From IMG/VR virus record IMGVR_UViG_3300025617_000828, positions 1 to 35,491 of that record: a DNA stretch of 35,491 nucleotides; one strand, 5' to 3'. This DNA comes from a virus. The notes under the pieces were generated by a model. It searched no databases, had not been told where the DNA came from, and saw only the letters and a program-made list of their open reading frames with translations. Made by a program: the position numbers and the translations under genes. Each line of letters starts with the position of its first letter. Within the stretch, counting starts at the first letter, position 1. Positions 2 to 22,550 of this stretch are shown here, in pieces.

Positions 2-46
2 TTTTGGTGTAAAGAACGAGAGTGGGCCATTGAACAAAACAAATAG
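2..46 (+). CDS. possible 3' tail of an upstream gene (partial)
   Basis: This frame is open from the window edge to a TAG at 44-46 and encodes 14 residues ending in EREWAIEQNK. If real, it is the C-terminus of a gene lying mostly outside the window and overlaps the following radical SAM gene by about 17 bp, like the other overlaps in this region. Nothing can be said about its function. The call rests only on the open frame and the compact gene arrangement. Confidence 0.22.
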   Translation, partial: FWCKEREWAIEQNK

Positions 47-1301
47 TTGTACATTTTGTATGCATCCTTTTACAGGGTTAGCTACACGAGAAGACGGTGC
101 TATTAAAGTATGCTGTCGCAGCCAACCTATCGGCTACATTCAAAACGAAACATTAGAAGAAGCGTGGAATAACGATGCTATGCGTGAAGTACGTAGGCAA
201 GTGCTTAACAACGAACGTCCAGATGTATGCAAGCCGTGCTTTGACCTCGAAGATCAGGGGGTACAGAGCTTACGACAGCGTCATACAGCAGGGGTAATAC
301 CCGAAGCTAGGGTCAACTTATACCCTAACGCACTAGACGCTTTAAACGACGATTATACAATGCCGTTTGAAATTCCTACTATGGAAATTAAACTCAACAA
401 CTTGTGCAACCTAAAATGTCGTATGTGTAATCCATTAGATAGTACAAGCTGGAAAGACTGGAACGAAGTAAAACCGTTTTATGAAAAAGAAAATAACATT
501 CTTATTCCTATTGTAGACTCGCTCACAGATACTCCGGGCAAATATATTGGGCCATTTGACGATAGTGATAATTGGTGGTCAAGTTTTGAAAAACTATTAC
601 CATTCTTTAGACGTGTAGAATTTGCAGGTGGTGAGCCACTAATGGATCCATACCACTACAAGATATTAGACAAACTTGCAGAGTATGGCGATAATATAGA
701 ACTAAAGTACGCTACAAACGGCACTACACTTGGTATTAAAGGCGGACGTACTATTCACGACTATTGGCCTAAGTTTAAAAGTGTTGCTGTAAACGTAAGC
801 ATAGACGGCTTACACGATGTCTACGAATACATCAGAGGCAACGGCAAGTTCAGTGAGATAGAAGAAAACATCAAAGTGTTTAAATCGTTTCCTAATGTAA
901 GCAGAGTAGTAGGTGCGTTTACTGTACAAGCGAACAATATCATGCAAATTTGTGATGTAATTGATTACTTCTTAAACGATATGGGTATTGTGTTTTATTC
1001 GCATCGTGTAAATTATCCTATGGCACTAAGTGCGCAAACACTGCCGCCAGAACTTAAACAAAATGTTGTACGTGATTTAGAAGTTATGAAATCAACTATA
1101 CAAGATTATAAAATTATACAAGAAAACGAACTATTAAAAACTATTACACTACAGCAAATACAAGATAATATAAACTTTCTAACTGCAAAATGTATGCACG
1201 ATACACACTGGCAAGATTGTATTAATTTCAATCGTGCATTAGATAAAACTCGAGGGCAAAGTTTCCTTGATACTACTCCGGAGTTTAAACAGTATGTATA
1301 A
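30..1301 (+). CDS. radical SAM protein with N-terminal Cys extension (RS1)
   Basis: Probable radical SAM enzyme of about 423 residues, of the twitch-domain type common in marine phages. The [4Fe-4S]-SAM motif CxxxCxxC is C126/C130/C133, followed by a GGEP motif at 200-203. Before the core is an extension with CTFC (C7, C10), a CC pair (C28, C29) and CxxC (C67, C70), likely ligands of an auxiliary cluster. The extension is shared with RS4 (3237-4619) and, in reduced form, RS7 (15031-16413). The only start codon in frame within the window is the TTG at 30, with a weak GAGAG ahead of it. The frame stays open to the window edge, so the true start may lie upstream; RS4 has 17 residues before its first Cys, this one six. 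It overlaps RS2 by 8 bp. The substrate is unknown. Confidence 0.85.
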   Translation: MNKTNSCTFCMHPFTGLATREDGAIKVCCRSQPIGYIQNETLEEAWNNDAMREVRRQVLNNERPDVCKPCFDLEDQGVQSLRQRHTAGVIPEARVNLYPNALDALNDDYTMPFEIPTMEIKLNNLCNLKCRMCNPLDSTSWKDWNEVKPFYEKENNILIPIVDSLTDTPGKYIGPFDDSDNWWSSFEKLLPFFRRVEFAGGEPLMDPYHYKILDKLAEYGDNIELKYATNGTTLGIKGGRTIHDYWPKFKSVAVNVSIDGLHDVYEYIRGNGKFSEIEENIKVFKSFPNVSRVVGAFTVQANNIMQICDVIDYFLNDMGIVFYSHRVNYPMALSAQTLPPELKQNVVRDLEVMKSTIQDYKIIQENELLKTITLQQIQDNINFLTAKCMHDTHWQDCINFNRALDKTRGQSFLDTTPEFKQYV

Positions 1302-2196
1302 AGTTGAATCAAAATGGCCACATCAAAATTCTATAAAGGTAGAATGGAATTTAGGTAAGCGTTGCAACTTAGACTGTTCATACTGTCCAGCTGAAATACA
1401 CGATAACTTTAGTCCACATACTAATATCAAAGTCTTACTAGATACTGTAGATGCACTAGCAGAACTAGACAAACCTGTACGTGTAAGTTTTACAGGAGGC
1501 GAGCCATGCATACATCCAGACTTTGAGGAACTTATAAAACACGCACGACAAAGATTAGATTGGATTAATGTAACTACTAACGGCTTACGCAAAGCAGAAT
1601 GGTACGCAGAAGCACCGGTAGATCATTATGTGTTTAGTTTACATTTTGATAACGAACATTGGGAACGTGCTATGGATAATATTATGTTGTTTGGGCAACA
1701 TAACGAAAACATGGATAGAATACCTTTTCAAGTAAATGTAATGGCTCATCATGAACATATGGATCGTGTACGATTAGCCGTTGCACGTTTTCACGGAAAT
1801 AACATTCCGTATGTAATAAGACGTATACGTTGGACACAAGCAGAAGATCGTGATTGGTTCGACGATATGCGTTATAAAGAAAAAGACTTACAATGGATAC
1901 TAGATACTAATGCAACTGCATTGCCTAACTGTCTTATAGATGATAATAAACTAAAACATGCTAACGATATTATTAAAGAAAAATTAAATAATTTCGAAGG
2001 ATGGACCTGCGCTGCTGGTATTCAAAGTTTAATGATTAACTGGGACGGTGAAGTACATCGTGCTACCTGTAGAGTAGGCGGCAGTTTAGGAAATATATAC
2101 AACGGTACATTTGAACAGCCCGAAGAATGGATAACATGTACACGCAAGTGGTGTACATGTGCTGCCGACGTGCCACTTACAAAGGAAAAAAAATGA
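1294..2196 (+). CDS. radical SAM protein with C-terminal Cys region (RS2)
   Basis: A 300-residue radical SAM protein. CNLDCSYC gives C24/C28/C31 for the SAM-binding [4Fe-4S] cluster, and a FTGGEP motif follows. The C-terminal part has a GWTCAAG segment, a later Cys and a final CxxxxCxC-like group, which suggests an auxiliary cluster (SPASM/twitch-like). The architecture matches RS3 and RS5. I chose the ATG at 1294 rather than the in-frame ATG at 1267 because the earlier one adds nine residues inside RS1 and lacks the GGAG at 1280-1283 that sits correctly for 1294. The gene overlaps RS1 by 8 bp and RS3 through ATGA, so the three are probably translationally coupled. Family assignment is firm; the substrate is unknown. 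Confidence 0.88.
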   Translation: MYKVESKWPHQNSIKVEWNLGKRCNLDCSYCPAEIHDNFSPHTNIKVLLDTVDALAELDKPVRVSFTGGEPCIHPDFEELIKHARQRLDWINVTTNGLRKAEWYAEAPVDHYVFSLHFDNEHWERAMDNIMLFGQHNENMDRIPFQVNVMAHHEHMDRVRLAVARFHGNNIPYVIRRIRWTQAEDRDWFDDMRYKEKDLQWILDTNATALPNCLIDDNKLKHANDIIKEKLNNFEGWTCAAGIQSLMINWDGEVHRATCRVGGSLGNIYNGTFEQPEEWITCTRKWCTCAADVPLTKEKK

Positions 2197-3242
2197 TCAA
2201 GATAGATGCGGTTAATTTAACCAATCCTGAAAAAATTATGGTGGCTTGGCATACTGGATACAGATGTAATTATGATTGCACTTACTGCGAAGCAACACGC
2301 CATGATAATCATAGCAGACATCAAACATACGATTCTTTTATAGAAACATTTAACTTTGTAAAGGAATACACAAAAATTTACGGACATTATGTGAATATAG
2401 ATTTTACAGGAGGAGAGCCAACTGTGAATCCTGCATTTTGGGATTTTGCAGAACATGTAATAAACACCGAAGATAGATTTAGATTAAGTCTTACAACAAA
2501 CGGTGCCTGGCATCCAAAAAATTCTAAAAGAATTGCAGACATTTTTGAAGGAGTTACAGTAAGTTATCATGCTGAAGCTGATATTAAGCTAAAAAGTCAA
2601 GTTTTGGAAAATATAAAACTGTTGCACGAAACAGGTATATGGATACAAGTAAATGTAATGATGCATGTTGATTACTTTGACGAATGCACTGAAGTTTGCA
2701 ATCAGCTAAAAGACTTGGGCATAATGCATAAACCAATTCCTATTGGAGACGGTAATATAGAACGTGCTGGCTGGTACCTTGATACCGACGGGACTCCTAG
2801 AAGAACAAGTCATACTTATACACAAGAGCAGCAAGATTGGTATTTTAAATATATAGGAGTAGAATCACCTACGTCAAACGCTAAAGAAGGAACTGACTTA
2901 GGAAGATCGTGTTGTGGTCGAAGATGTCTAAAAGGACTAGTTAAAAATAAATGGCAAGATATAACGTATGTCGACACTCACTTTAAAGGATGGTACTGTA
3001 GCGTCAATAAATACTTTCTCTATATTGATCAACAAAAAGGTGAAGTTTATCATCATCAGACTTGTAAAGCGTTGCATAACGGTAAGCGAGGACCGATTGG
3101 TAATTTAAAAAATGCCGATGCAATATTGCAATATGCAATAGAGAATAAAGATAAGGCAATTGTTTGTCCTAATGACAGATGCGGATGTGGCATGTGTGTA
3201 CCAAAAGCCAAGGACTTTAACGATTTTATTTCTTTGTCATAA
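2193..3242 (+). CDS. radical SAM protein with C-terminal Cys region (RS3)
   Basis: A 349-residue radical SAM protein. CNYDCTYC gives C25/C29/C32, and FTGGEP follows. The C-terminal third carries a CC pair near residues 247-248, a GWYC segment and a dense cysteine group at the end (CPNDRCGCGMC), compatible with one or two auxiliary Fe-S clusters; this is the most Cys-rich of the RS2/RS3/RS5 group. The start is the ATG at 2193, overlapping the RS2 stop as ATGA and preceded by AAAGGA at 2181-2186. A longer frame from 2127 lies within RS2 and was rejected. The 3' end overlaps the convergent RS4 gene by 6 bp. Function beyond the family is not known. Confidence 0.88.
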   Translation: MIKIDAVNLTNPEKIMVAWHTGYRCNYDCTYCEATRHDNHSRHQTYDSFIETFNFVKEYTKIYGHYVNIDFTGGEPTVNPAFWDFAEHVINTEDRFRLSLTTNGAWHPKNSKRIADIFEGVTVSYHAEADIKLKSQVLENIKLLHETGIWIQVNVMMHVDYFDECTEVCNQLKDLGIMHKPIPIGDGNIERAGWYLDTDGTPRRTSHTYTQEQQDWYFKYIGVESPTSNAKEGTDLGRSCCGRRCLKGLVKNKWQDITYVDTHFKGWYCSVNKYFLYIDQQKGEVYHHQTCKALHNGKRGPIGNLKNADAILQYAIENKDKAIVCPNDRCGCGMCVPKAKDFNDFISLS

Positions 3243-4619
3243 TAAATGACTTAACTCCGGAAATATTTTTGCAGCATTAAGTCCACGGATTGCATCTAAT
3301 TTATTTACATATTCTTTAAAACCTGGTAATAAATGACTGTTATCTACACTATCCATATGTTTTAACAATCCTTCCCATTTTGTCCACCCAGACGGATTAT
3401 GTATCCAAAAATCATCGTCTTGAGTATAATTATCCCAAAGCCATTGTTTAAATTCTGCAAAAATTTCTCTAACTTCTTGTTTATCCTTTTCAGGTAATAT
3501 TGTAATATTTAAAAAGGTAGGAATGTGTACTAAATGCATATTAACTAGTCCGCCGCCCATAAGTACGCCGCCAACTTTGCCGACATTCATTTTACGAAAA
3601 TTTTGTTTTATTTTCCATTTCATAAAATCTGGTAAATGCTTTATATTAAATATTTGCACTGCTGTTGCCATACTAACATGAATATTATCAGGAGTATTGT
3701 CTAACATATGTAATGTTCGTTCTACATCTGCAAAGTTTGTAGGAAATCTTATATAATGATCTCGTTCGTGTATAGCGTCTATGCTCACAGCAAACTTAAC
3801 TTTTCTAAACTTACTCCAAAGTTTGATTAGTTCTTCGTCAACAAGTATGCCGTTTGAATTATAACGTAATAGTATATTTTGCTCGTATCCTTGACGTACA
3901 ATTTCTTCCAAAAACTTTTTGTGTTCTGCAATCATAAGAGGTTCGCCGCCAGCAAAATAAACTTGCTTTAGATTTGGAACTTGTGCGTATAGTTCATCCC
4001 AGAACTTACCTTTTTCATACCACTTATTATTAAACTCTTTTTTGTCCCAACGCATTTGACGTTTTACATCTTCATCTTGTAGCACAGGAATAAGTTTCTG
4101 CCAATCTGCTACCCACTTTGAACTGTCGTGTGGGCTGCACATTACACATTTAATGTTACAAGTATGCCCTAGTCGTAAGTCTAAGTATTGTAGTTGCTCT
4201 GGAACTGTTCCGTCTTCTGCTGTTTGAGCAATAAGTTCTTGTATGTCAACACCTTCATCTTTGTACCAAGTACCAGTTTCCCAAATACGTTTACTAACAA
4301 TACCTTGCGATTCTTCTTTAAAGCACCCTGAACAACTTGCAGGTATTTCGCCTCGTAGCATAGTTGTGCGTACACTTTTCATATAGTCGCTGTTAAACGC
4401 TTCTAAAGGAGTTGTACGTGCGAAATTAGCAGGCTTTCCGTCCTCTGCTTTAACTAGTCCTACTTCGTGATCATCTCCGGCGCCGCTTGCATTTGCTGTA
4501 CAACATAAACGCATATCGCCGTTTGGCCTAGTAGCAAGATGAATCCACGGCAGAACACAAAAGGTGCAACTACCTGTAAGTTCTTCTATTTGAGTTTTAT
4601 AGTCGTCTATTTTAGACAT
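3237..4619 (-). CDS. radical SAM protein with N-terminal Cys extension (RS4)
   Basis: A 460-residue radical SAM protein. The core motif CNIKCVMC is at C154/C158/C161, with AGGEP further on. The N-terminal extension carries CTFC (C18, C21), the CC pair (C39, C40) and CxxC (C96, C99), matching RS1 in order and spacing (for example PW/PF-x-x-LATR after CTFC), so the two are clear paralogues. The region after the core is long and probably holds the twitch-like C-terminal part of this family. The start codon overlaps the end of the methyltransferase gene by 8 bp, and the Shine-Dalgarno is weak (AAAGAAAA), so expression probably depends on coupling. The gene is convergent with RS3. Substrate unknown. 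Confidence 0.88.
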   Translation of the reverse strand: MSKIDDYKTQIEELTGSCTFCVLPWIHLATRPNGDMRLCCTANASGAGDDHEVGLVKAEDGKPANFARTTPLEAFNSDYMKSVRTTMLRGEIPASCSGCFKEESQGIVSKRIWETGTWYKDEGVDIQELIAQTAEDGTVPEQLQYLDLRLGHTCNIKCVMCSPHDSSKWVADWQKLIPVLQDEDVKRQMRWDKKEFNNKWYEKGKFWDELYAQVPNLKQVYFAGGEPLMIAEHKKFLEEIVRQGYEQNILLRYNSNGILVDEELIKLWSKFRKVKFAVSIDAIHERDHYIRFPTNFADVERTLHMLDNTPDNIHVSMATAVQIFNIKHLPDFMKWKIKQNFRKMNVGKVGGVLMGGGLVNMHLVHIPTFLNITILPEKDKQEVREIFAEFKQWLWDNYTQDDDFWIHNPSGWTKWEGLLKHMDSVDNSHLLPGFKEYVNKLDAIRGLNAAKIFPELSHLL

Positions 4620-5217
4620 TTTTCTTTTTGCCTATTATCATATAGCGTGTATACTTAGGAGTTTTAAATTCGCCTCTCCAGTAGGGTTTAATACTACTCA
4701 TACGCATAAAGTCATCGATGTCAGTTGCACAACGAATGTGCTCGTCTAACTCAAAATAGTTATTGCTTTGTATTACAAATAATGCATTGTCTGGCTGAAT
4801 GCTTAACCACTGTTCGTATTGTTCTTGTGTAATGTGTTCGCAACTTGTGTTAATAACAATGTCAGCAGGTTCTGTATACTCGCACATGTCTGCTGTTATT
4901 GCTGTAAAGCGTCCTGACATTTCGTAGTTTTTATTAACTGTGTAGGCAGTTTCTTGACAATCTTCATCAATGTCTACACTTGTGATATGTTCTATGCTTA
5001 AACTGCTGTTGAACAAGATACTAGCAAGTACTCCGTTCCAGCCGCCATAAATCACAATACGAGCATCGTCGTCAACGTAGTTTACACGCAGTGCATCTGC
5101 CAGCCAAACTTTGCTGTTGACCTGTCCTTTCCAGAAACTTTCAAGTGTGCGGTATTTGTCATCGCTGTTGCGAATTGCATCCATCCAGAATAGTACGTCT
5201 TGTATGTCAACTCTCAT
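4612..5217 (-). CDS. class I SAM-dependent methyltransferase-like protein
   Basis: A 201-residue protein with the features of a Rossmann-fold methyltransferase: a glycine-containing motif I (IVIYGGWNGVLAS, residues 54-66), an acidic motif II (SVDIDED, 80-86), a TAD segment around residue 110, and NTSCEHI (123-129) in the motif IV position. There is no extra substrate-recognition domain, so a small-molecule, lipid or peptide substrate is possible; no DNA-methylase DPPY/NPPY motif is visible. I start it at the ATG at 5217, two nucleotides after the desaturase stop. The longer frame from 5280 would put 21 residues inside the desaturase gene. It lies between a desaturase and RS4 in one minus-strand unit. 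The fold is likely; the substrate is unknown. Confidence 0.7.
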   Translation of the reverse strand: MRVDIQDVLFWMDAIRNSDDKYRTLESFWKGQVNSKVWLADALRVNYVDDDARIVIYGGWNGVLASILFNSSLSIEHITSVDIDEDCQETAYTVNKNYEMSGRFTAITADMCEYTEPADIVINTSCEHITQEQYEQWLSIQPDNALFVIQSNNYFELDEHIRCATDIDDFMRMSSIKPYWRGEFKTPKYTRYMIIGKKKNV

Positions 5218-5219
5218 TA

Positions 5220-5978
5220 CTATGAAGTTTTCATTAATAAGTATTTTATTATCCAAGCCGGAGGATCTAATTCCCACCATCTTTCTTGATTATTCCATGC
5301 TTTACTATTTGCATGATGATTATTATGCCAGCCTTCACCTAAAGTAATAAGGCTCGCAATCCAAGAATTTCTAGCTTCTTCGTGCCCTAAGTCGTGAGTT
5401 TTATATCCGTGCATGTGAGCAATAACAATAATAGAACTTGTACTATGTAAAACTAAGACAGCAGGTATTGCGTATCCAAACACAATCCAAATTGGATCTA
5501 TTAGGGCTAGGCATGCAACATAAGCAGCTATTATATAAAAATAATATTTGTGTGTAAACTTATAAAACTTATTTTTTCTTATGTCTTTAATTAGCTTAGG
5601 ACTAATCCAGTCAACTTTCCAAACACCAAACCAGGCTTTCCACCAACCTAGTTGGTAAGGGCTGTGAGGATCTTTCTCTGTTTCTGTATGACCATGATGT
5701 TGTCTATGTAGTGCAGTCCAAGCAAGAGGAGAACCTACTGTAGTAATTACTCCAATTAGTGCCAAAATATATTCTATAGGCTTATAAGTTTCAAAACTTC
5801 TATGTGAAATTAATCTATGGTAGCCTATGTTAATTCCAAAGACTCCGATAAACCAATAGATAAATACACTGTACAACATCATCATCCAGTTTGAAGTTGT
5901 AAAACAGTAATACAATCCGTAAAACAGTAATAAGTGTGTTGCAACTTGTAAAAGTCTTACTAATCTATTATGATCCAT
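5220..5978 (-). CDS. fatty-acid desaturase, HxxHH type
   Basis: A 252-residue integral-membrane di-iron desaturase. It has the three histidine boxes: HRLISH (54-59), HRQHH (91-95) and HNNHH (218-222). Hydrophobic segments near residues 10-50, 65-85 and 150-185 fit the four-helix topology, and the length suits a bacterial delta-9 acyl-lipid/acyl-CoA desaturase core without a cytochrome b5 domain. It would introduce a double bond into an acyl chain in the host membrane. The ATG at 5978 has a good AGAGGAAG Shine-Dalgarno. It is the first gene of a minus-strand unit (desaturase, methyltransferase, RS4) and is divergent from a second desaturase 55 bp away. Confidence 0.93.
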   Translation of the reverse strand: MDHNRLVRLLQVATHLLLFYGLYYCFTTSNWMMMLYSVFIYWFIGVFGINIGYHRLISHRSFETYKPIEYILALIGVITTVGSPLAWTALHRQHHGHTETEKDPHSPYQLGWWKAWFGVWKVDWISPKLIKDIRKNKFYKFTHKYYFYIIAAYVACLALIDPIWIVFGYAIPAVLVLHSTSSIIVIAHMHGYKTHDLGHEEARNSWIASLITLGEGWHNNHHANSKAWNNQERWWELDPPAWIIKYLLMKTS

Positions 5979-6033
5979 ATATGCTTCCTCTTATTATATT
6001 ATTTAACTAAATAGAGGATAAGAGGAATCAATA
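5979..6033. promoter_or_regulatory. divergent intergenic region between two desaturases
   Basis: This 55-bp gap separates divergent genes and must hold the start signals for both unless each is read from further away. On the minus strand a TATAAT hexamer lies at 5993-5998, but the hexamer 17 bp upstream (TTATCC) is a poor -35. On the plus strand TATATT at 5995-6000 has no recognisable -35. AGAGGA-type ribosome binding sites occur on both sides. No exact NATAAATA octamer is present. I consider a promoter here likely by position but only weakly supported by sequence. Confidence 0.35.
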
Positions 6034-6759
6034 ATGAGTTTATATCATAAAGTAAAACTTTTACTACTAACTACAAATGTAGTAGGTGCAATAGGTCTTA
6101 TATTTTATTTTTCTTGGTGGGGGTTAGGCCTTGCTATTTTAACATGGATTGTATTTAATTACGGAGTTAGTGCAGGATTTCATCGACTGTTCGGGCACGG
6201 TGCATACGAAACTAATGCTGTTGTATGGTGGGCTCTTTTAATTAGTGGGTCTCTTGCAAGTATAGGAAGTAGTATTGCATGGATCGGTCAACATCGTACA
6301 CATCATGCCAATAGCGATGTAAAAGGAAAAGATCCTTATTATCCACACGATAACTGGCTATATGCGTGGGTATTCGGTCCTTGGTCGACTCCTATATCAC
6401 CGAGAATGATTAAAGATTTACTTAGAGACAAGCGTCATAGATTTTTTCATGATCATTATTTTAAAATTATTGCTGCTTATGTTGCTGTTCTTGCTGTTAT
6501 AAATCCCGTTTTAGTATTTTGGATGTGGGCATTGCCCGGAGCAATGACTTTCTTCAGTTTACAGGCAACAGGAGTTCTAGGTCATATGATCGGAACTATA
6601 GATTATGACATCGAAGACGATAGCCGTAATAGTCATATTTTAAATATTTTAACGTTCGGTGAAAGCTATCAAAATACACATCATCATGATACACAAAAAA
6701 TATTATTAGGAAAATATGACTTAGTAGGATATACTATAAAATACGTGTTTTCTAAATGA
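6034..6759 (+). CDS. fatty-acid desaturase, QxxHH variant
   Basis: A 241-residue membrane desaturase related to, but clearly distinct from, its divergent neighbour. Box 1 is HRLFGH (50-55) and box 2 is HRTHH (87-91). The third box is QNTHHH (213-218), with Gln in place of the first His. A QxxHH third box is established in front-end desaturases, so it need not mean loss of activity, although those usually carry a cytochrome b5 domain that is absent here. Hydrophobic segments at about 8-45, 62-85 and 150-185 fit membrane insertion. The AAGAGGA-type Shine-Dalgarno before 6034 supports the start. The stop overlaps the next gene as ATGA. Confidence 0.9.
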   Translation: MSLYHKVKLLLLTTNVVGAIGLIFYFSWWGLGLAILTWIVFNYGVSAGFHRLFGHGAYETNAVVWWALLISGSLASIGSSIAWIGQHRTHHANSDVKGKDPYYPHDNWLYAWVFGPWSTPISPRMIKDLLRDKRHRFFHDHYFKIIAAYVAVLAVINPVLVFWMWALPGAMTFFSLQATGVLGHMIGTIDYDIEDDSRNSHILNILTFGESYQNTHHHDTQKILLGKYDLVGYTIKYVFSK

Positions 6760-7391
6760 ATACTAATACATACGAAGACGAAACTTATCGGTGCGTTACT
6801 TTTACTAAAGGCAACGACGAATGGGAAAGAGTTAGAAGCCTTTGTTTAGAAGAAGACAACTGGCTTAGAGAAAATTATGTTCCTGAAAAGTGTGTTGTAG
6901 AAGATCACGATGTATTCTCTATTACTTACGTTAAAGAAACAAATGCACCGATATGCTTTACCGGAATTTATAATAATGGTCGTTATCCAAAACAAGTTGG
7001 ACGTTGTTTAAATAGATTTTACCTTTTTCCAGAATATAGATCTTCTGACTTAAGAAAAAGAATGTCAGCTATTCATAATCTAATTGTTCCGGCGATGTTA
7101 GATTCTTCCCCTATAAAACGAGAGTTAATGTTTATATCAATGCAAACACGCGAACGAGCATACGAGGGTGAAGAAACTTGGTGGAAACTTTGGAAAAGAA
7201 TTTGGCTAGGATTTAACGGAGGATGGACGCCTGTTGAAGGATTAACTCAAGTAGTTCCGGGGGAAGACTATAGAGGATTTCAAAATATTATATACAAAAG
7301 CTATAGCGATTATAAATTTGAAAATTGGAATCCAAAAATATTAAGCTATGAAGAACATAGGAATCTTTATATTAAACAATCTTCTTCTTAG
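6756..7391 (+). CDS. protein of unknown function, possibly GNAT-like
   Basis: A 211-residue soluble protein, rich in Trp, Arg and Glu, with no signal peptide or membrane segment. The middle part (about residues 55-120: an ICFTGIYNNGRY strand, then NRFYLFPEYRSSDLRKRM, then a helix) resembles the strand-loop-helix that binds acyl-CoA in GNAT acetyltransferases. The canonical RxxGxG/A loop is not convincing, so this is only a suggestion. It overlaps the QxxHH desaturase by ATGA and is therefore probably coupled to it, hinting at an acyl-related role. Its 3' end overlaps the convergent RS5 gene by 20 bp. Confidence 0.75.
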   Translation: MNTNTYEDETYRCVTFTKGNDEWERVRSLCLEEDNWLRENYVPEKCVVEDHDVFSITYVKETNAPICFTGIYNNGRYPKQVGRCLNRFYLFPEYRSSDLRKRMSAIHNLIVPAMLDSSPIKRELMFISMQTRERAYEGEETWWKLWKRIWLGFNGGWTPVEGLTQVVPGEDYRGFQNIIYKSYSDYKFENWNPKILSYEEHRNLYIKQSSS

Positions 7392-9391: not shown

Positions 9392-10049
9392 TAAACTGTT
9401 CCTCTAACCATTCGTAGTTGTTTATTAACTGAATATCATTGCTGCGAGAAATGCCAAACTCACGGCCAGCCCGAGCACCTCGTATCGCATACTCACCAAA
9501 AAGTCTATCGTGTCCCACGGTTGTCCAAGTTTCAAGTCGGGTTTCTGTTTCTTCATCTATTTGTCCTTGTATTGTCTTACTTGCTAGTTTAGCACATTCT
9601 CTAAACGCACTACGCCAAGTGCTAAAAGGATCAGTGTTAAAGGCTGTAATATTCGACATTTGTTCTACTGCTTTAAATTGGGTTGATATACTTGTAGTCA
9701 TATCAGGCTTACTAGTATCCATATTAATTGTAAGTTTGCGAGGAAGGAGTTTTACACCGCCATATCCGTATACTAAATCATTAACAGGATTAATACTACG
9801 CCATACATGTACTGTTTCTAAGTTGTATTTGTCAACTTCGTAATCAAAATTAAAATCGTCTACAAGTTGTGCATCTGCATCAACTACCCAAAACATTTTA
9901 GTAAAGCATTTCTTTGCTGCTTTAATATGTGCCTGGTGTATACCTTTTACATTAGCTACACGCTTTGCAGTAGGGAACCTATCTTTTAATAGATTCCAGT
10001 TATCTTCAGCATATGCTTCGCCATAACTAATAAAAACAATATCATACAT
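9375..10049 (-). CDS. GT-A-like glycosyltransferase (DxD), short paralogue
   Basis: A 224-residue protein with a probable GT-A nucleotide-sugar-binding fold. The N-terminus reads DIVFISYGEAYAEDNW, and a DxD motif is at D57-A-D59 (WVVDADA). It is a clear paralogue of the 300-residue protein at 16403-17305: shared features are DIVF(I/L)SY, A-x-RV-x-x-(V/G)-x-G, VDAD, G-(Y/N)-GG-(V/L)-K, a TWR/AWR-x-x-FRE block and a C-terminal GAR. A glycosyltransferase role follows from the DxD and the fold-like pattern but is not proven. It is the first gene after a strong sigma70-type promoter whose predicted transcription start is at or next to its ATG. No proper Shine-Dalgarno would then be transcribed. 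Confidence 0.75.
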   Translation of the reverse strand: MYDIVFISYGEAYAEDNWNLLKDRFPTAKRVANVKGIHQAHIKAAKKCFTKMFWVVDADAQLVDDFNFDYEVDKYNLETVHVWRSINPVNDLVYGYGGVKLLPRKLTINMDTSKPDMTTSISTQFKAVEQMSNITAFNTDPFSTWRSAFRECAKLASKTIQGQIDEETETRLETWTTVGHDRLFGEYAIRGARAGREFGISRSNDIQLINNYEWLEEQFNAACK

Positions 10050-10055
10050 CCTAAT

Positions 10056-10084
10056 ACTATAACACCTCTTTAATAATTTGTCAA
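10056..10084 (-). promoter_or_regulatory. sigma70-type promoter, TTGACA-17-TATAGT
   Basis: On the minus strand the -35 TTGACA occupies 10084-10079 and the -10 TATAGT occupies 10061-10056, with exactly 17 bp between them. The -35 overlaps the TGA stop of the upstream SGNH-like gene. The ATG of the downstream gene is at 10049, only 6 nt past the -10, so the expected start of transcription is about at the ATG. It would drive the unit glycosyltransferase-like, RS6, RS5. AGAGGTG lies inside the spacer and would not be in the mRNA made from this promoter, although it would serve readthrough transcripts. Confidence 0.7.
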
Positions 10085-10869
10085 GCGTTTCTTAAATAAC
10101 TCCAAATAACTGTAGAATTTCTTTTATTACTTACAGGGCCACAATGTACTAAATCTCTTGCTCCGTTATCAAATTGTAGTCTTTGCATTTTTCCATAATG
10201 TGCTGTATCATCAAACCACGAAGCATAAAACGTATTAGTATTAGACCACATAAATTTTACTTGCTCAATATTGTAAATAGATTTTATAATACTGTTATGT
10301 TCTTCTCGAATATAACCGTGCCAGTATTCATCTTCGGTAGACCATAAACCTAAAAATTCAGGAGCTAAATTTTTAAATTGCATTAAACGATTTACATTAG
10401 TAAATAGGTTAACTACTGCCCAAGGAGTAGGATAATTTTTTCTTAATAAAAAATTGTTATATAGATTAAAATCTAAACCAGAGGCAGGAACACCTAAATT
10501 AATAACCGGGCGGCCTGATTTTTGTTCTAAAAAATAAGATATTGTTTCGTCTTCGTGTACTCCTATTCCAGCAGTCATCGAACAACCTAACAAGACTATC
10601 GAGTTTTCCCAATCGATATCACTAAATTCTTTTGTTCTGTATCCTTTAGAATTTACAACATACTCAACTTCTTTTGTCCTGTAATGCCAATTTTTTGGTT
10701 GGATTTTTAAATTTTCTTGAAGGAGTTCATAGGTATCACCAGAAGAAAAATTATTAGTATTTTTTAAAGGATCTTTATGATCAGGAAGTGTAAGCCACGA
10801 AATTGGTATTAAATCATCGAGACTATGATATGACGGCAACGATATAGCATCTAACCAATTATGTATCAT
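10081..10869 (-). CDS. SGNH/GDSL-like hydrolase
   Basis: A 262-residue protein with the four blocks of an SGNH hydrolase. Block I is LLGCSMTAG with candidate nucleophile S97 (GCS instead of GDS), block II is NLGVPASG around G126, block III is in the NLFTNVN stretch (155-160), and the C-terminal DxxH is D239/H242. The family includes carbohydrate acyl-esterases and lipases; in a cluster of sugar genes, removal or transfer of an acyl group on a glycan is a reasonable guess. There is no signal peptide. The start overlaps the stop of the second SGNH-like gene as TAATG, so the two are coupled. It is the last gene before the second promoter. Confidence 0.72.
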   Translation of the reverse strand: MIHNWLDAISLPSYHSLDDLIPISWLTLPDHKDPLKNTNNFSSGDTYELLQENLKIQPKNWHYRTKEVEYVVNSKGYRTKEFSDIDWENSIVLLGCSMTAGIGVHEDETISYFLEQKSGRPVINLGVPASGLDFNLYNNFLLRKNYPTPWAVVNLFTNVNRLMQFKNLAPEFLGLWSTEDEYWHGYIREEHNSIIKSIYNIEQVKFMWSNTNTFYASWFDDTAHYGKMQRLQFDNGARDLVHCGPVSNKRNSTVIWSYLRNA

Positions 10870-11915
10870 TACATATCTCTAATATGTTCATACAATTCTT
10901 TAGCAAACAGATCGTGTGCTTTTGCACTAGGATGACAACAGACAGTAACCCAATTGCCCGGAGTGCCAACTCCGTTATAATCCCAAAAACCTTTATTAAC
11001 TATTCCTTCCTGTTTCAAACATAGATCCATAAATGTTTGACAATCTTGAGGATAAAACATATTATCCCAGGGCCATTGATCTACGATCTTTTCTAATGTT
11101 TCTAAATGACCCTCATGTCTATTAAACTTTAATAATTCTTCTGATTCAGGGCCGCCATCTCTAGTTTTAATTGCAACAATGTTTTGATCGGTATTACGTT
11201 CTATATAATCTTTTAATGACATATTAAAAGACTCTTTAGTATATGTTCTATCAAATCCGGGTGTAATTACTAATTTTGCATTGTTAACTTTACACCAGTT
11301 TTGCAAATCCATTACATTTAATATTTGTTCAAGTACTGAAGACTTATCACTATATACTGCTTCGCTATAGCCCTTCCATAAATTTTTTCTGGCGCCGGCA
11401 TGTTGATCCTTCCAATGCGGCCAAGCAGTAGAAAATAAATTATGTTCGTTAAACTCGTCGTTAACAAAATCGAACCGTTCTTTACCGCTCGGTACATATA
11501 ATACTATAATCTCTTTTGCAAGATCCCAGCGGATGTCTGGCCATAGATATAAATTCTTTATACTAGCACGGTTTCCTCGTCCGCGTATCCCCATATTAAT
11601 AGGAGTATATTCGTTTTTAAAATATTTCTTGCATAATACATTAACAAATGCATTTTTATATTCCATAAATGTAAAATTGATATTTTTACCATCCGATTCC
11701 AGTTCAGGATACTTTCTCTTTAGTTGTATACTTTGCTTTTTAGATAGTACAGGTTGCATCGGAACTCCGGTGCGCTGCATAGTCCATTCATAGTTGTTAT
11801 ATAGTTCTTGGTCTATTGCACCTTGACCTTCAACAAAAGAACATCCTAAACTAATTATGGCCTTTCCTGTTTTTTTTAAACTTCTATTAATTTCTTTTAC
11901 TTGATCAAAATACAT
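10869..11915 (-). CDS. SGNH-like protein with incomplete active site
   Basis: A 348-residue protein with an SGNH-like framework. SLGCSFVEGQG (block I, S26), NMGIRGRGN (block II, G109; N115) and a C-terminal HPSAKAHDLFAKEL (H328) resemble the hydrolase blocks. The position three before the His is Val rather than Asp, so the usual DxxH is missing; catalysis may use another acid or be lost. It shares the GCS block I with the neighbouring 262-residue protein, suggesting an old duplication, and is longer by an insertion in the middle. AGGAAA sits six nucleotides before the ATG. It is one nucleotide downstream of the GT-B-like gene. Confidence 0.68.
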   Translation of the reverse strand: MYFDQVKEINRSLKKTGKAIISLGCSFVEGQGAIDQELYNNYEWTMQRTGVPMQPVLSKKQSIQLKRKYPELESDGKNINFTFMEYKNAFVNVLCKKYFKNEYTPINMGIRGRGNRASIKNLYLWPDIRWDLAKEIIVLYVPSGKERFDFVNDEFNEHNLFSTAWPHWKDQHAGARKNLWKGYSEAVYSDKSSVLEQILNVMDLQNWCKVNNAKLVITPGFDRTYTKESFNMSLKDYIERNTDQNIVAIKTRDGGPESEELLKFNRHEGHLETLEKIVDQWPWDNMFYPQDCQTFMDLCLKQEGIVNKGFWDYNGVGTPGNWVTVCCHPSAKAHDLFAKELYEHIRDM

Positions 11916-11916
11916 T

Positions 11917-13233
11917 TTAATTTCCTATTTTTTCTTGTAGCTTTATAATCGACAAGGGAATTTTTGTAGTTGTATTATCTTTTAATACTTCAAAATTGTA
12001 ATCTAAAATTGGTTGCATAGCCGCAAACCATTTTAGTTTTTTATCGTGAGACATATTTTGTATTACTTTTAAATTTTTTATAATAGCATCAAGTCTGTCC
12101 CATGTATCTAAGTTATCATATGATTCATCTATATAATCACCAAATGTTTTATAACCTAAATCTTTTAAATATTTAAGACTATGAATGTTTCCATAAGTCA
12201 TAAATGGATGTCTTGCTGCAATAGGTTTAAACGACTTTTCACTAATAAAACAAGTATTTTCTGCAAAAGATGCTTCGCTTACAACACTTACCCAAGAATC
12301 TCTAGTTTCTTGGTGATAAAGATCTTTTTCAAACGATCCGCCCCATCCGCTTTTAAATAGTTCTTGTTTATCTCTAGGTAAATTTTGTCTAGGATACATA
12401 GGTAAGTATTCAATAATTTGCTTATAGGATTCCTTGTCTATAACTCGCCCTTCATAATAAGATGATTGTTCAGCAAAAGAATTCATGCTATTAATGCCAT
12501 GCTGCAATAAATCGTTCTTGAACAAATGATGGAACATCCATATACGATGAGGCCTAGCACGTTTTTGGAAGCAGTTATAGGTTTTAATATTATTTTTACT
12601 TTTATATTCTAAGTGATCTTCAACTGTAGGCAATACATTTTTTTGTTTTTTTGCAGAATCATATATAAACTCTTCAAAATGAATATAAGGTACTACAGTC
12701 ATTTTACTTGAAGGCTTATTCTTTAAACACCAATCAGTATATTGTTCTTCTACTGCAAGATTGCCAGTAACATATATAATTCTGTCTGCGTTTAGCTCGT
12801 ATTTTTTACATGCATCATGAAACCAATCAAATAACCAATCAGTGTGATATCCTTCGTGAGATTGATCCAACAACAAGTATGCTTTTCCTTTTTGCAGATC
12901 TCTTAAGAATTTTGTACCTAGATCTGCAAAAATTGTTTTACGTTTTATTTGTGCGTCATCATATTTTTTATCTAAATCTGTATATCCTGTCCAGTCCCAC
13001 GGCGAATGCGTTACACCAGTAGGCACAATATAATTCTTATATTTTTTTCTATTTTTAAAAATATCTATTTTTAAAGATCTAGATTCATAATTTTCAAAAT
13101 TTAAATTCAATGTTCTATATCTTATTAATGTTCCAAGTAGAGGACTTGCAGGAAATCGTTTGACTCCGGAAGTGTTCTTCTCTTTACTAGATATTCCTTC
13201 GTTATGTATTAGATTATTAACAATAAAAATCAT
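11917..13233 (-). CDS. putative GT-B-like glycosyltransferase
   Basis: A 438-residue protein. Its C-terminal third contains a block (about residues 313-365) reading SVVSEASFAEN, then FISEKSFKPIAARHPFM, a Gly, and SLKYLKDLGYKTF. That layout (acidic-Lys pair, Pro-Ile, then a Gly turn and helix) resembles the sugar-nucleotide-binding C-lobe of GT-B enzymes such as GT10 fucosyltransferases and exostosin-like proteins. The N-terminal half has no motif I recognise. I call it a glycosyltransferase by resemblance only; it could be a conserved phage protein with another role. The start overlaps the 2OG oxygenase stop as ATGA. Confidence 0.6.
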   Translation of the reverse strand: MIFIVNNLIHNEGISSKEKNTSGVKRFPASPLLGTLIRYRTLNLNFENYESRSLKIDIFKNRKKYKNYIVPTGVTHSPWDWTGYTDLDKKYDDAQIKRKTIFADLGTKFLRDLQKGKAYLLLDQSHEGYHTDWLFDWFHDACKKYELNADRIIYVTGNLAVEEQYTDWCLKNKPSSKMTVVPYIHFEEFIYDSAKKQKNVLPTVEDHLEYKSKNNIKTYNCFQKRARPHRIWMFHHLFKNDLLQHGINSMNSFAEQSSYYEGRVIDKESYKQIIEYLPMYPRQNLPRDKQELFKSGWGGSFEKDLYHQETRDSWVSVVSEASFAENTCFISEKSFKPIAARHPFMTYGNIHSLKYLKDLGYKTFGDYIDESYDNLDTWDRLDAIIKNLKVIQNMSHDKKLKWFAAMQPILDYNFEVLKDNTTTKIPLSIIKLQEKIGN

Positions 13234-14024
13234 TTACGATCCCATTTCTCAACATCAGTACTTGTTATTTGCGACCGACGTTGAATTAATTCTAATATTT
13301 CTTTATTGTCTTTTTGTTCTTCGGTTGGTACAAACACTGCACGTTTTCTATCGTTAGTATCTTCCGACGGCGTCTCGCACATATAATACATAGCTATACT
13401 ATTTCTAGATTTTCCTTCTGGACATTTAACTGTTGATGCAAGTCCGTGCCAGCTGTTTTGCGTTGTATCAAAGATAATAGCTCTATTAAACATAGGCGGA
13501 ATTTTAGTGTGTAATTCTGTCGGCTGTCCGTTTTCATCAGAACTCCACATACCAAATTCTCCTCCCCATTCTTCTTTCCAGTCCGGAGTTAGATAAATTA
13601 ATAAATTTAGTTTACGCTGTAGTCCTAATTTAGGATGTAAGTTATAGTCGAGATGAGGATTCAACTTTCCGCCTGGTGGATGTATGTGTTGTCCTCCGCC
13701 ATGTAATCCTGAATCAGAATCTAGTGGAACTTGAGTAGCTTTAGAAAAAGTATCTACTACTTCATATGAGTTTAGTGCATACAAAAGTTTATATGTGTTT
13801 TCAGAAAATTTATCCCATATATTTCCTGTTTTTTTTAATTCGATTGCATTATCATATGTTCCGTTATAATTAGGAGAATCAAAATTAGGAAATTCAGCAG
13901 CAACTTTGTTAGCAAAGTCTTCATTTAAAAAATTATCTATTACACAATAATCAAATGGAGGATTTTTTCCAAAATTCTTCCATTCGTTTATTATTCGTCC
14001 CATATTAATTAAATTGCCAACCAT
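13230..14024 (-). CDS. 2OG-Fe(II) oxygenase (prolyl-hydroxylase-like)
   Basis: A 264-residue protein with the facial triad of 2-oxoglutarate/Fe(II) dioxygenases: H124-x-D126 in NPHLDYN and distal H193 in SWHGLAS, followed by R207 (KSRNSIAMYY), the likely 2OG-binding residue. The pattern is that of the prolyl-4-hydroxylase-like group, common in marine T4-like phages. It would hydroxylate a protein, sugar or lipid using 2OG and O2. The start at 14024 has AAGGA at 14032-14036; the in-frame ATG at 14003 has none, so I keep the longer form, which overlaps the upstream dehydratase by 16 bp. It sits inside the nucleotide-sugar/glycosyltransferase run, so a glycan or virion-protein target is plausible. 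Confidence 0.85.
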   Translation of the reverse strand: MVGNLINMGRIINEWKNFGKNPPFDYCVIDNFLNEDFANKVAAEFPNFDSPNYNGTYDNAIELKKTGNIWDKFSENTYKLLYALNSYEVVDTFSKATQVPLDSDSGLHGGGQHIHPPGGKLNPHLDYNLHPKLGLQRKLNLLIYLTPDWKEEWGGEFGMWSSDENGQPTELHTKIPPMFNRAIIFDTTQNSWHGLASTVKCPEGKSRNSIAMYYMCETPSEDTNDRKRAVFVPTEEQKDNKEILELIQRRSQITSTDVEKWDRK

Positions 14025-15034
14025 CTATCATTCCTTAGTGTCCATTGTATTACTTCTTCAAGTTTATCGTAAGCACTACTCGGAGTCCAACCCATATTTG
14101 CCATTTTAGTTCCGTCTAGCGCATAACGCAAATCGTGCCCAGGGCGACTACTATGAAAATCTACCATTTCATAATTCAAAGGCTTGCCCTGCGTATCTGC
14201 AATAAACTGTGCAAGTTGTAAATTATCAATTTCAGTACTGCCAACAATATTAAATTTTTGACACTTTGCGCCCGTTTCATCTGGTTCTAATACACTTAAA
14301 TCGTAGTTATATAAAAACATTAATGCATCTGCAACGTCTCTTGCGTGAATATAATGTCTAGATCCTGCAACTGTTTTTTCTGCATTTGAATGCACAGTAA
14401 CTTTTTCATTATCCCTTACACGCTTTATAGTCATAGGAATATATTTTTCAGAATTCTGTCTTTCACCAAATACATTCATAGTATGTGTAATAATGCTAGG
14501 CAATCCGTAAGTGTTTTCATATGCAACTACAAGTTCTTCTGCGGCTGCTTTTGTTGCACTATAAGGATTAGTACTGTTGTATCGATCGTTTTCTTTATAT
14601 TTTACGTTGCCTGGAGCAGGGCCAAATATTTCGTCTGTGCTAAAATAAGCAAACATATCCAAACTATCTAAATTTCGAGCATAATCTAATAAGTTAGTTG
14701 TACCTACAACATTGTCCATTACAAATTCCATAGGATATGTAATGCTTCTGTCAACATGCGAGCCAGCAGCTAAGTGTGCAATAAGATCCACTTTTCCTAT
14801 CATAGCACGTATTTCTGGATTTAGTGCAGCCTTTAAATCGTGGTGTACTACACGTACACGTTTTCTGTCAGATTCTGAATGAGATGTTACTATTTCATGT
14901 AATCTATTAAGATTTCCACTATAGTCTAATCTATCAAGAGTAACAATTCTCCAATCTGTTTCTTTTAATATCTTGTCTACTAAATGATGGGCAATGAAGC
15001 CTGCGCCACCTGTTACTAAAACTGTTTTGCTCAT
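14009..15034 (-). CDS. rmlB: dTDP-glucose 4,6-dehydratase-like NAD-dependent enzyme
   Basis: A 341-residue extended short-chain dehydrogenase. It has the NAD-binding TGGAGFIA (8-15; the last Gly of GxxGxxG is Ala), LAAGSHVDRSI (88-98), the STDEIFG segment with the T133-D134-E135 triad typical of RmlB, and Y158-SAT-K162. Together with NPYSATKAAAEELV and the YGLP that follows, this is strongly RmlB-like. It would convert dTDP-glucose to the 4-keto-6-deoxy sugar; a related NDP-sugar dehydratase cannot be excluded. I start it at 15034, where ATGA overlaps the RS7 stop and an AGGAAG site precedes; the ATG at 15058 adds eight residues inside RS7. No RmlA, RmlC or RmlD partner is in the window, so the host must supply precursor and later steps. 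Confidence 0.82.
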   Translation of the reverse strand: MSKTVLVTGGAGFIAHHLVDKILKETDWRIVTLDRLDYSGNLNRLHEIVTSHSESDRKRVRVVHHDLKAALNPEIRAMIGKVDLIAHLAAGSHVDRSITYPMEFVMDNVVGTTNLLDYARNLDSLDMFAYFSTDEIFGPAPGNVKYKENDRYNSTNPYSATKAAAEELVVAYENTYGLPSIITHTMNVFGERQNSEKYIPMTIKRVRDNEKVTVHSNAEKTVAGSRHYIHARDVADALMFLYNYDLSVLEPDETGAKCQKFNIVGSTEIDNLQLAQFIADTQGKPLNYEMVDFHSSRPGHDLRYALDGTKMANMGWTPSSAYDKLEEVIQWTLRNDRWLAI

Positions 15035-16413
15035 AATGCTTCCTGTGTTAATGTCCAAAAATTTTCTAATTCTGGAAATGTTTTTAAAATATTAGTGTTC
15101 CTGCGTCTGTCGTGTTCTGAAAACCAATTATAAAAATTTCGCCTTGCTTCTAGCAATTTTTCTGCTTCGTAACTAGTATTTTGCATATAGTTAACTACTC
15201 GTCTAAATCTTTCATATTCTAATGAACTAAATTTAGTGCGATCTTTGTCGTCTGTGTTAGTTTTAATAAACTCTAAATGCTTATGCATATATGGCATAAA
15301 TTCATCTTTAGGAAGAATATTCATGTCATATATTGTAGGCTCTTTTAAATGCGGTGTATCAAATCGTATACGTTGCCATTGTGTTTCGTTTTGATCTCCA
15401 TTATACTTTTCTCTCCATTCTAAAATTTTAGAAAGAAGTGTATCAAAACTAGTAACACTAAACAAGTTAAAAGTAATCATAAATGTTACTGGCCAGCCTG
15501 TATTTTTTAAATAATAATCTAAATTTTGTTCCCATAATTTAATATCTAAACCAGTACGTGTATATTCTGCACGGTCCGTCCAAGTGTCAATACTTGTATA
15601 CAGTTTAAAACTTCTAATTTTGTTTTCTTCTTTAAGGCGTTTAACAGTGTCTGTAAGTTTTTTAACAAGCGCAGGCTTAACGCCCATATTACTGTTAAGC
15701 TCGATTTGCAGATGTGGTTTAGGCTCTGCATCTAATCTTTCAAATAATTCCCATGTGCTTTTATGCATTAACGGTTCGCCGCCGGTAATACGTAAGATGT
15801 TTAAAGTCTTGCTAACTTCTGGCCACCATTTCCACCATGCTTCTACATACGGATTTTCTTCTTCACGATGGAATACTTTAAACCAGTCTATGTCTTGTCT
15901 GTGGTCGGTGCTTGTTTCGTAAGGACCGTGTTGTTTAATTTCGTTGTAGTATCTGCTTGAAGCTTTGGGATGACAGTAGCCGCACTTAAAGTTACATTCA
16001 TTCGAGAAGCTAATTTCAATATATTCAGGGTTGATATCATAATTAAATCCATTTTCTGTTATTTCGGTTAATCGTTCCGGAGTGTATATACTAGCTGTTT
16101 TAATATGCCTATCACTAACATAGTCTTTGCCCATTGCTTCGATCTTCCAACAATAGTTGCAACCACTAGGTTTTCTGCCTTCTAACATTTCTTTTCGTTG
16201 TAATTTTTTTTCTTGTGTGTTGTGTAATGCACTAGGATTATCTTGTATTTCTGTTAATGGAATCTTATGCGGTGCAGGATGATAACAACTATGCGTTTCA
16301 CCTGTTTGCAAATAAATTGTAGTATGATGCCACTTAGCCATACAGAATGTAGGACTAACTGTCCTATCTGTTATAGGAATTATTTGTTTAATTTTATCTA
16401 ATTCACTGTTCAT
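15031..16413 (-). CDS. radical SAM protein, divergent N-terminal extension (RS7)
   Basis: A 460-residue radical SAM protein related to RS1 and RS4. CNFKCGYC gives C140/C144/C147, followed by ITGGEP. Its N-terminal extension keeps only part of the paralogues' cysteine pattern: PTFC (C24) instead of CTFC, a single Cys (C43) instead of CC, and then CNYC before residue 100. An auxiliary cluster there would need other ligands or be absent. I chose the ATG at 16413, which gives the same distance to the first Cys as in RS4; the ATG at 16482 adds 23 residues overlapping the upstream glycosyltransferase gene. No strong Shine-Dalgarno is seen, and it overlaps that gene by 11 bp. Confidence 0.87.
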   Translation of the reverse strand: MNSELDKIKQIIPITDRTVSPTFCMAKWHHTTIYLQTGETHSCYHPAPHKIPLTEIQDNPSALHNTQEKKLQRKEMLEGRKPSGCNYCWKIEAMGKDYVSDRHIKTASIYTPERLTEITENGFNYDINPEYIEISFSNECNFKCGYCHPKASSRYYNEIKQHGPYETSTDHRQDIDWFKVFHREEENPYVEAWWKWWPEVSKTLNILRITGGEPLMHKSTWELFERLDAEPKPHLQIELNSNMGVKPALVKKLTDTVKRLKEENKIRSFKLYTSIDTWTDRAEYTRTGLDIKLWEQNLDYYLKNTGWPVTFMITFNLFSVTSFDTLLSKILEWREKYNGDQNETQWQRIRFDTPHLKEPTIYDMNILPKDEFMPYMHKHLEFIKTNTDDKDRTKFSSLEYERFRRVVNYMQNTSYEAEKLLEARRNFYNWFSEHDRRRNTNILKTFPELENFWTLTQEAL

Positions 16414-21000: not shown

Positions 21001-21024
21001 TTTTATTTCCTTGTTATATGCGTA

Positions 21025-21032
21025 TATTTATA
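21025..21032 (-). promoter_or_regulatory. T4-like late promoter, TATAAATA
   Basis: The minus strand reads TATAAATA here, identical to the T4 late-promoter consensus, 24 nt upstream of the ATG at 21000 and overlapping the stop codon of the upstream fibre gene. Two further NATAAATA octamers occupy the same relative place in the other gaps of the structural region, which supports it; a single octamer would be common by chance in DNA this AT-rich. Confidence 0.75.
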
Positions 21033-22518: not shown

Positions 22519-22542
22519 CTGTTGAACCCCTGTTATATTACA

Positions 22543-22550
22543 TATTTATC
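22543..22550 (-). promoter_or_regulatory. late promoter, GATAAATA
   Basis: GATAAATA on the minus strand lies in the 43-bp gap between two fibre genes, 24 nt upstream of the ATG at 22518. It fits the NATAAATA form reported for late promoters of cyanophage relatives of T4. The spacing is identical to that of the TATAAATA upstream of 21000. Confidence 0.68.

Follow-up and report, generated by a model that had tools for sequence, protein, structure and literature searches.

A conserved radical SAM gene core in uncultured aquatic T4-like phages and its counterpart on Bdellovibrionia chromosomes

T4-like phages rich in radical S-adenosylmethionine (SAM) genes have been described before. The Campylobacter phages CP220 and CPt10 encode 11 and 12 radical SAM proteins, respectively, and carry an interchangeable five-gene cassette (PMC2853527). 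A marine T4-like genome listed in 2017, TARA_ERS488813_N000010, has an Fe-S carrier besides its 12 radical SAM genes (PMC5332604). The host recognition clusters of pelagimyophages hold glycosyltransferases, gain radical SAM cassettes and are located, together with tail fibres, between the giant baseplate gene (VrlC) and the neck genes (PMC7029224). Since many-radical-SAM T4-like phages have thus been published, the density of such genes alone is not new. The system analysed in this work is the radical SAM gene island of the virus record IMGVR_UViG_3300025617_000828 (35,491 bases; the whole of this stretch is referred to as the window), in which an earlier note, made from the letters alone, had pointed out seven radical SAM genes, RS1 to RS7, as a possibly undescribed system.

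The island is like the CP220 and CPt10 modules in belonging to a T4-like phage rich in radical SAM genes and in having a swappable cassette (PMC2853527). However, the CP220 and CPt10 cassettes are barely related in sequence even to each other (PMC2853527), and in a tblastn search RS1, RS3 and RS4 matched none of the Campylobacter phages, RS5 matching CP21 alone at 23 % identity. Glycine amidinotransferase is listed in the CP220/CPt10 modules (PMC2853527), whereas in the relatives of the window amidinotransferase-like genes (by inspection) turn up only now and then as cargo, together with aminotransferase-like genes (also by inspection) in nine loci (e.g. L025:4541-6744). With the pelagimyophage cluster and TARA_ERS488813_N000010 the window shares a marine T4-like background, an island near tail genes, glycosyltransferases, radical SAM genes and Fe-S supply, but the two reports mention or count the genes, and in the parts consulted neither sets out a conserved core, a gene order for it or a counterpart in bacteria (PMC7029224, PMC5332604). 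A giant virion gene and tail genes adjoin the window island, a position of the same kind as that of the pelagimyophage cluster. A conserved core, an order with a swappable slot and a chromosomal counterpart were not found in the literature searched, which included few subscription journals or preprints, and of the novelty suspected earlier it is the core and its cellular counterpart that appear to be undescribed.

A scan of IMG/VR with RS4 gave 175 related stretches, 80 of which (71-100 % identity) were kept, and gene presence was counted in 22 distinct loci anchored on RS4 that reach at least 7 kb to either side. All 22/22 contained RS1 and RS2, 20/22 contained RS5 and o5, and 19/22 contained o11. 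A PP-loop gene, whose product is weakly QueC-like, and a 2-oxoglutarate (2OG)-hydroxylase-like gene were found just left of RS1 in 21/22 loci each; the pair falls outside the left end of the window and is seen in L089, to the left of RS1 in the 169-kb IMG/VR contig G001 (G001 34060-37162). RS6 orthologues near the window's version occurred in 8/22 loci and diverged RS6-type genes in many more. Two gene orders were seen: o11-RS6-RS5-o5-RS4-RSx followed by RS2 and RS1 on the opposite strand, and RS4-RSx with RS2, RS1, o5, RS6, RS5, o11 and o18 following on the opposite strand. In the window the slot of RSx, which is a divergent radical SAM gene, is occupied by RS3. The core genes are under strong purifying selection, with median dN/dS values against the window of 0.09 for RS4, 0.10 for RS1, 0.11 for o5, 0.13 for RS5, 0.14 for RS6, 0.155 for RS2 and 0.17 for o11. 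The related records contain 5 to 23 radical SAM genes each, a density far beyond chance. The set co-occurs in a syntenic arrangement in many phages, and the independent scatter among phages, named in the earlier note as the outcome that would speak against its idea, was not seen.

RS3 was present in 2/22 and 8/30 loci, RS7 in 2/22, and o6-o8 and o12-o16 in 0 to 5 of the 22. RS3, RS7, the desaturases, the epimerase and the SGNH-like genes are swappable cargo and, being variable, tell little about the substrate. The claim that the radical SAM genes are interleaved with sugar, acyl and methyl-transfer genes thus has to be narrowed: the recurring set comprises RS1, RS2, RS4, RS5, RS6 (with variants), o5, o11 and o18 together with the PP-loop and 2OG-hydroxylase-like genes. 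A tryptophan-halogenase-like flavoprotein (by inspection) is another occasional cargo of the islands (L032:17943-19529 and five other loci).

The hypervariability of the island, in which RS3, RS7 and most of the cargo change, could also mean that independent auxiliary metabolic genes have gathered in one region without a joint product, and radical SAM genes are often listed as marine viral auxiliary genes (PMC7150976). The divergence of RS4 is likewise not tied to that of RS5 (Mantel r 0.06), and RS4 tracks the other core genes weakly, which suggests that RS4 recombines between phages. Against independence stand the occurrence of RS1, RS2 and RS5 in all or nearly all loci and the correlated protein distances of RS1, RS2, RS5 and o5 (r = 0.74 to 0.78), as well as the bacterial data that follow.

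When bacterial and archaeal genomes were scanned with RS4, matches of 46-49 % identity appeared in metagenome-assembled genomes (MAGs) of Bdellovibrionia, where homologues of RS5, RS6, o5 (26-37 % identical), o11 or o18 lie next to RS4. Among 144 Bdellovibrionia genomes RS5 was present in 15, while strong matches to RS4 and RS6 were present in 13 and 15, respectively, and 13 genomes had all three (hypergeometric probability ~1e-16, uncorrected for the relatedness of the genomes). The copies adjoin ordinary chromosomal genes, e.g. MoxR-, DUF58- and SppA-like genes (by inspection) in the 494-kb contig L247, and no virion genes were found at the clusters; the substrate must therefore occur in a normal cell. 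Co-occurrence in two separate kinds of genome largely refutes the idea of unconnected genes, which is now very improbable, and the dedicated pathway proposed earlier is borne out by synteny in many phages, purifying selection and the presence of a subset of the genes on bacterial chromosomes. Archaeal and Rickettsiales matches of the same scan were not used as cellular evidence, as they look like mis-binned phage contigs. The public MAG contigs L098 (labelled Thermoplasmata) and L109 (labelled Rickettsiales) appear to be phage contigs, and L109 is equally long as the viral contig IMGVR_UViG_2823573081_000015.

An RS5 profile built from the Bdellovibrionia and window sequences detected at least 522 viral relatives in IMG/VR, the best 80 of which are 59-68 % identical to the Bdellovibrionia protein and include contigs of up to 382 kb. 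In 51 loci longer than 19 kb an RS4-type gene was present in 47/51 and an RS6-type gene in 32/51. The fuller loci have the order o18-o11-o5-RS6-RS4-...-RS5 with 0-6 radical SAM genes between RS4 and RS5, and up to 23 radical SAM genes were found on single contigs. A-type Fe-S carrier genes were present in 10/17 of the larger contigs tested versus 0/8 window-type contigs, which fits the need of the larger relatives to load many Fe-S enzymes. The families common to phage and Bdellovibrionia loci (numbers of phage/Bdellovibrionia loci) include SDR (41/7), 2OG-hydroxylase-like (41/4), PP-loop (33/2), desaturase (18/2), o5 (13/9), o11/o18 (8/9) and B12-binding-type radical SAM proteins (13/4). In an unrooted RS5 tree, based on similarity-guided sampling, each of the two phage sets formed a single group (supports 100/100 and 99/92), with the sequences from bacteria falling between them. 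It is possible, though less likely than not, that uncultured aquatic phages and Bdellovibrionia share an undescribed system in which a fixed core of GT-A proteins, a probable methyltransferase and three radical SAM enzymes, with a slot swapping up to six more radical SAM genes, would let each phage make its own variant of one radical-modified surface molecule. In some of the larger phages RS3-like (L276, L303, L267, L268) and RS2-like (L260, L280, L283, L286) enzymes are split, the C-terminal Cys domain forming a separate open reading frame (ORF) of ~120-155 amino acids (aa), and the halves of the RS2-like enzymes are separated by one or two radical SAM genes.

All seven ORFs RS1-RS7 are present where the earlier note placed them. 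Their products all match PF04055 (Pfam Radical_SAM) above its curated cut-off of 29.5 bits, and each contains exactly one CX3CX2C motif; the motif occurs in no other ORF of the window, and its chance expectation at the window's Cys frequency is ~0.0006 per 400 aa. A GGEP motif lies downstream of it in RS1-RS5 and RS7, and RS6 has CGNYGDP there. RS1, RS4 and RS7 belong to N_Twi_rSAM (NF033640, curated cut-off 170 bits; scores in Table 1), a broad subfamily without a named function, which does not include RS3, RS5 and RS6 (44, 39 and 33 bits) or RS2, placed outside the best 25 matches listed. The Pfam SPASM model matched the N-terminal part of RS1 (34.2 bits, cut-off 21.5) and fell just under the cut-off for that of RS4, so the N-terminal extension of RS1 resembles a SPASM/twitch domain placed before and not after the radical SAM core. 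RS2, RS3 and RS5 have auxiliary Cys groups at the C-terminus. Two of the three architectures distinguished previously, with an N-terminal extension and with C-terminal Cys groups, were thus confirmed, and for the third, RS6, the label 'SPASM-like' describes the Cys pattern (C249, C266/C267, C307, C333/336/340), as the Pfam SPASM model gave no match with this protein.

RS4 was the sole radical SAM protein of the seven to be folded. Its AlphaFold2 (AF2) model (predicted local distance difference test, pLDDT, 86) gave significant Foldseek matches in the PDB to radical SAM enzymes only, namely SkfB, CteB, viperin, DesII and MoaA; for this protein the lack of an intact SAM-binding fold, the other refuting outcome named in the earlier note, was not seen. 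With the SPASM maturases SkfB, CteB and TigE, which act on ribosomally synthesized and post-translationally modified peptides (RiPPs), the window enzymes have in common a radical SAM core with auxiliary Cys clusters. The window enzymes differ from them in having no precursor peptide and in scoring far below the maturase cut-offs, and RS1, RS4 and RS7 also in carrying the auxiliary domain at the N-terminus instead of the C-terminus; none of the radical SAM proteins reached an NCBIfam equivalog cut-off.

Among the non-radical partners, o11 was modelled by AF2 with pLDDT 92 and gave Foldseek matches of probability 1.00, the best (E 6e-5) to the fucosyltransferase WrtF, and nearly all of its 33 matches with E up to 0.001 were glycosyltransferases. 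D59 of o11 is invariant. Judging from the model, o11 is probably a glycosyltransferase of the GT-A fold, and o18 is by sequence a paralogue of the same family, adjacent to o11 in the Bdellovibrionia locus L099; searches of o11 and o18 against Pfam, PHROG, NCBIfam and PDB sequences gave no match to a described glycosyltransferase sequence family. The motifs GGWxG and DxD make o5 a probable class I SAM methyltransferase, although Pfam, NCBIfam and PDB profile searches gave no match.

The explanation that we tentatively favour is that the island is one biosynthetic module that would make or modify a glycan or glycoconjugate of an unusual kind on the infected cell's surface. Its core would consist of o18, o11, o5, RS6, RS4 and RS5 and, in the phage group of the window, also of RS1, RS2 and the PP-loop and 2OG-hydroxylase-like proteins. 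o11 and o18 might act on a sugar unit, transferring or otherwise handling it. At the unreactive carbons of this unit the radical SAM enzymes could abstract hydrogen (for deoxygenation, epimerisation or the formation of C-C or C-N bonds), while their auxiliary Fe-S domains would bind the substrate or pass electrons, and o5 would supply a methylation step. The swappable radical SAM, 2OG-oxygenase, SDR, PP-loop and desaturase genes may tailor the product, and the location of the island next to receptor-binding genes would suit an alteration of the infected cell's surface, e.g. one that blocks competing phages. Observed are the gene set, its conservation, order, selection and co-occurrence, its cellular counterpart, the fold models of o11 and RS4 and the lack of a precursor peptide; that a glycan is the substrate, which reactions each enzyme carries out and how the phage profits are inferred.

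A cellular glycan or glycoconjugate is the simplest common substrate, because the bacterial clusters are free of virion genes and the phage island is free of a precursor peptide. Fourteen glycosyltransferase family 2 (GT2) genes, counted by hand from their positions, were found within 10 kb of the Bdellovibrionia RS4 genes in 6/13 genomes, compared with 1.2 expected from the background of 4.2 per Mb in those genomes (P ~4e-4 counting loci). A glycan is in keeping with this clustering of GT2 genes in bacteria and with the position of the phage island, which is of the same kind as that of the host recognition cluster (PMC7029224). Several observations weigh on the other side. In 7/13 Bdellovibrionia loci there is no GT2 gene within 10 kb, the fold match of o11 is modest (TM ~0.42), and above the family cut-offs no characterised homologue of a core protein points to a sugar substrate. 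In the window, RS7 has sugar genes next to it that do not belong to the conserved partners. Peptide maturases lead the structural neighbours of RS4, in loose alignments (TM ~0.3), 2OG-hydroxylase-like partners are typical of peptide and protein modification too, and the core enzymes would also be suited to modify a protein. One Bdellovibrionia GT2 gene has a C-terminal tail with near-identical repeats of ~26 aa (FWLPNEVRKL...; L103:4726-5562 and L104:10826-13368, where an N-run breaks the assembly). A radical SAM-GT2 fusion, considered on account of Cys motifs in some of the Bdellovibrionia GT2 proteins, was unsupported by Pfam and by hhalign (probability 2.5 %).

In a rather unlikely but substantial alternative the module would modify a protein, either a virion protein or a host protein common to infected cells and Bdellovibrionia; the radical SAM and hydroxylase-like enzymes, o5 and o11/o18 would cross-link its side chains and decorate them with hydroxyl, methyl and sugar groups. 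SkfB and CteB, the best Foldseek matches of RS4, are peptide maturases, the best PDB profile matches of RS5 include TigE and an anaerobic sulfatase maturase, o11 also matches the peptide S-glycosyltransferases SunS and ThuS and polypeptide GalNAc-transferases, Asp/Asn-hydroxylase-like partners recur and the island adjoins tail and baseplate genes. However, SPASM-type enzymes give unspecific structural matches, virion genes are lacking at the Bdellovibrionia clusters, and no non-enzymatic substrate protein was recognised among the families common to phage and Bdellovibrionia loci.

Radical SAM enzymes with auxiliary clusters frequently mature RiPPs and several weak NCBIfam matches of the island are RiPP maturases, so a RiPP natural product with its precursor encoded elsewhere in the genome was weighed as well. 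It is improbable: in agreement with the earlier note no precursor-peptide gene is visible, as positions 1-19906 of the window are 99.6 % coding with gaps of at most 65 nt and there is no recurrent small ORF among the 80 loci; the search did not extend to a RiPP recognition element. The tandem 26-aa repeats next to the clusters of L103 and L104 were considered as a multi-core precursor and rejected, the repeat ORFs of L104 being the tail of a GT2 gene, whose C-terminal part they continue up to the N-run.

RS3, RS2 and RS5 weakly resemble prokaryotic viperin (NF038283; 39-52 bits, best RS3 with 51.5) and the PP-loop partner weakly resembles QueC, which might indicate a nucleotide-modifying or antiviral function. 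All scores were far under the viperin cut-off of 180 bits, and to our knowledge viperin needs neither a GT-A or methyltransferase partner nor a second radical SAM enzyme, which makes this the least probable of the explanations considered.

The island is embedded in a piece of a T4-like phage genome. The phage origin assumed earlier is confirmed by the virus record and by tail, collar and virion-protein genes recognised with Pfam and PHROG; the island sits between tail genes and the giant virion gene, its genes are overlapping and tightly packed, and to the right it joins the tail-fibre, collar and giant virion genes (Table 1). G001 has the same gene order as the window from RS1 through the giant gene (G001 37-82 kb), contains 15 radical SAM genes, encodes a giant gene product of 5,287 aa and has a major capsid protein 67-72 % identical to those of large T4-like phages such as Phosso, PA5oct and Vibrio phage 2.275.O. 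Neither RNA families nor tRNA genes were found in the window, which therefore gives no host clue from tRNA.

Table 1 Genes of the window. Probable starts of RS2 (1294), RS3 (2193) and RS7 (16413) lie inside their longest ORFs; RS1 is truncated at the left end of the window, its frame being open from base 3. The last column gives presence in RS4-anchored loci.
Gene	Coordinates	Strand	Product	Place in the island	Basis	Loci
RS1	3..1301	+	N_Twi_rSAM; 5' end outside window	core of window-type module	NF033640 329.8 bits; PF04055	22/22
RS2	1294..2196	+	radical SAM with C-terminal Cys domain	core of window-type module	PF04055 55.5 bits	22/22
RS3	2193..3242	+	radical SAM with C-terminal Cys domain; ORF opens 2127	variable slot between RS2 and RS4	PF04055 49 bits	2/22
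RS4	3237..4619	-	N_Twi_rSAM	core in phages and Bdellovibrionia	NF033640 390.8 bits; AF2/Foldseek radical SAM core	
o5	4612..5217	-	probable class I SAM methyltransferase; ORF opens 5280	core	motifs only	20/22
o6	5220..5978	-	fatty acid desaturase	variable cargo	PF00487 E 4e-16	5/22
o7	6034..6759	+	fatty acid desaturase	variable cargo	PF00487 E 9e-15	0/22
o8	6756..7391	+	GNAT-like by inspection	variable cargo	no family match	0/22
RS5	7372..8358	-	radical SAM with C-terminal Cys domain	core in phages and Bdellovibrionia	PF04055 45 bits	20/22
RS6	8327..9391	-	SPASM-like radical SAM	core with variants	PF04055 36.9 bits; Bdellovibrionia homologues	
o11	9375..10049	-	GT-A-fold protein (probable glycosyltransferase)	core	AF2 and Foldseek	19/22
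o12	10081..10869	-	SGNH-hydrolase-like by inspection	cargo	weak DUF6473	1/22
o13	10869..11915	-	SGNH-hydrolase-like by inspection	cargo	no significant family match	1/22
o14	11917..13233	-	glycosyltransferase-like by inspection	cargo	no family match	1/22
o15	13230..14024	-	2OG-Fe(II) oxygenase	cargo	PF13640 E 3e-17	0/22
o16	14009..15058	-	nucleotide-sugar epimerase/dehydratase	cargo	PF16363 E 2e-47; phrog_540 E 3e-99	0/22
RS7	15031..16413	-	N_Twi_rSAM; ORF opens 16482	cargo	NF033640 323.1 bits	2/22
o18	16403..17305	-	o11 paralogue (same family)	conserved partner	adjoins o11 in Bdellovibrionia locus L099	
o19-o22	17302..19906	-		link island to tail genes; order kept in G001	sole family match phrog_1903 (o20)	
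o20, o21	within 17302..19906	-	GT8-type glycosyltransferase-like by inspection			
o23-o27 and giant gene	19972..35491	-	tail fibre, collar and virion structural genes		PF07484 Collar; PHROG tail/virion families	

No orthologue of RS1, RS3, RS4 or RS5 was detected in the INPHARED isolate phages at the tblastn sensitivity used. In the isolate Vibrio phage K566 (L097, 160-180 kb) several radical SAM genes adjoin a PagP lipid A acyltransferase gene; their products are just 23-25 % identical to RS1 and RS4, and this phage could serve as a cultured model of a related island.

Reports of phages that carry a dozen or more radical SAM genes go back to 2010, but offer no explanation for them. With a fixed core that has a counterpart on bacterial chromosomes, these auxiliary genes of unknown role become a pathway that can be tested. 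The core names the minimal gene set, and the chromosomal context shows where the product may be looked for. Should this product be a surface glycan, the phages would be using radical chemistry to remodel their hosts' surface, and many new radical SAM enzymes could be drawn from them.

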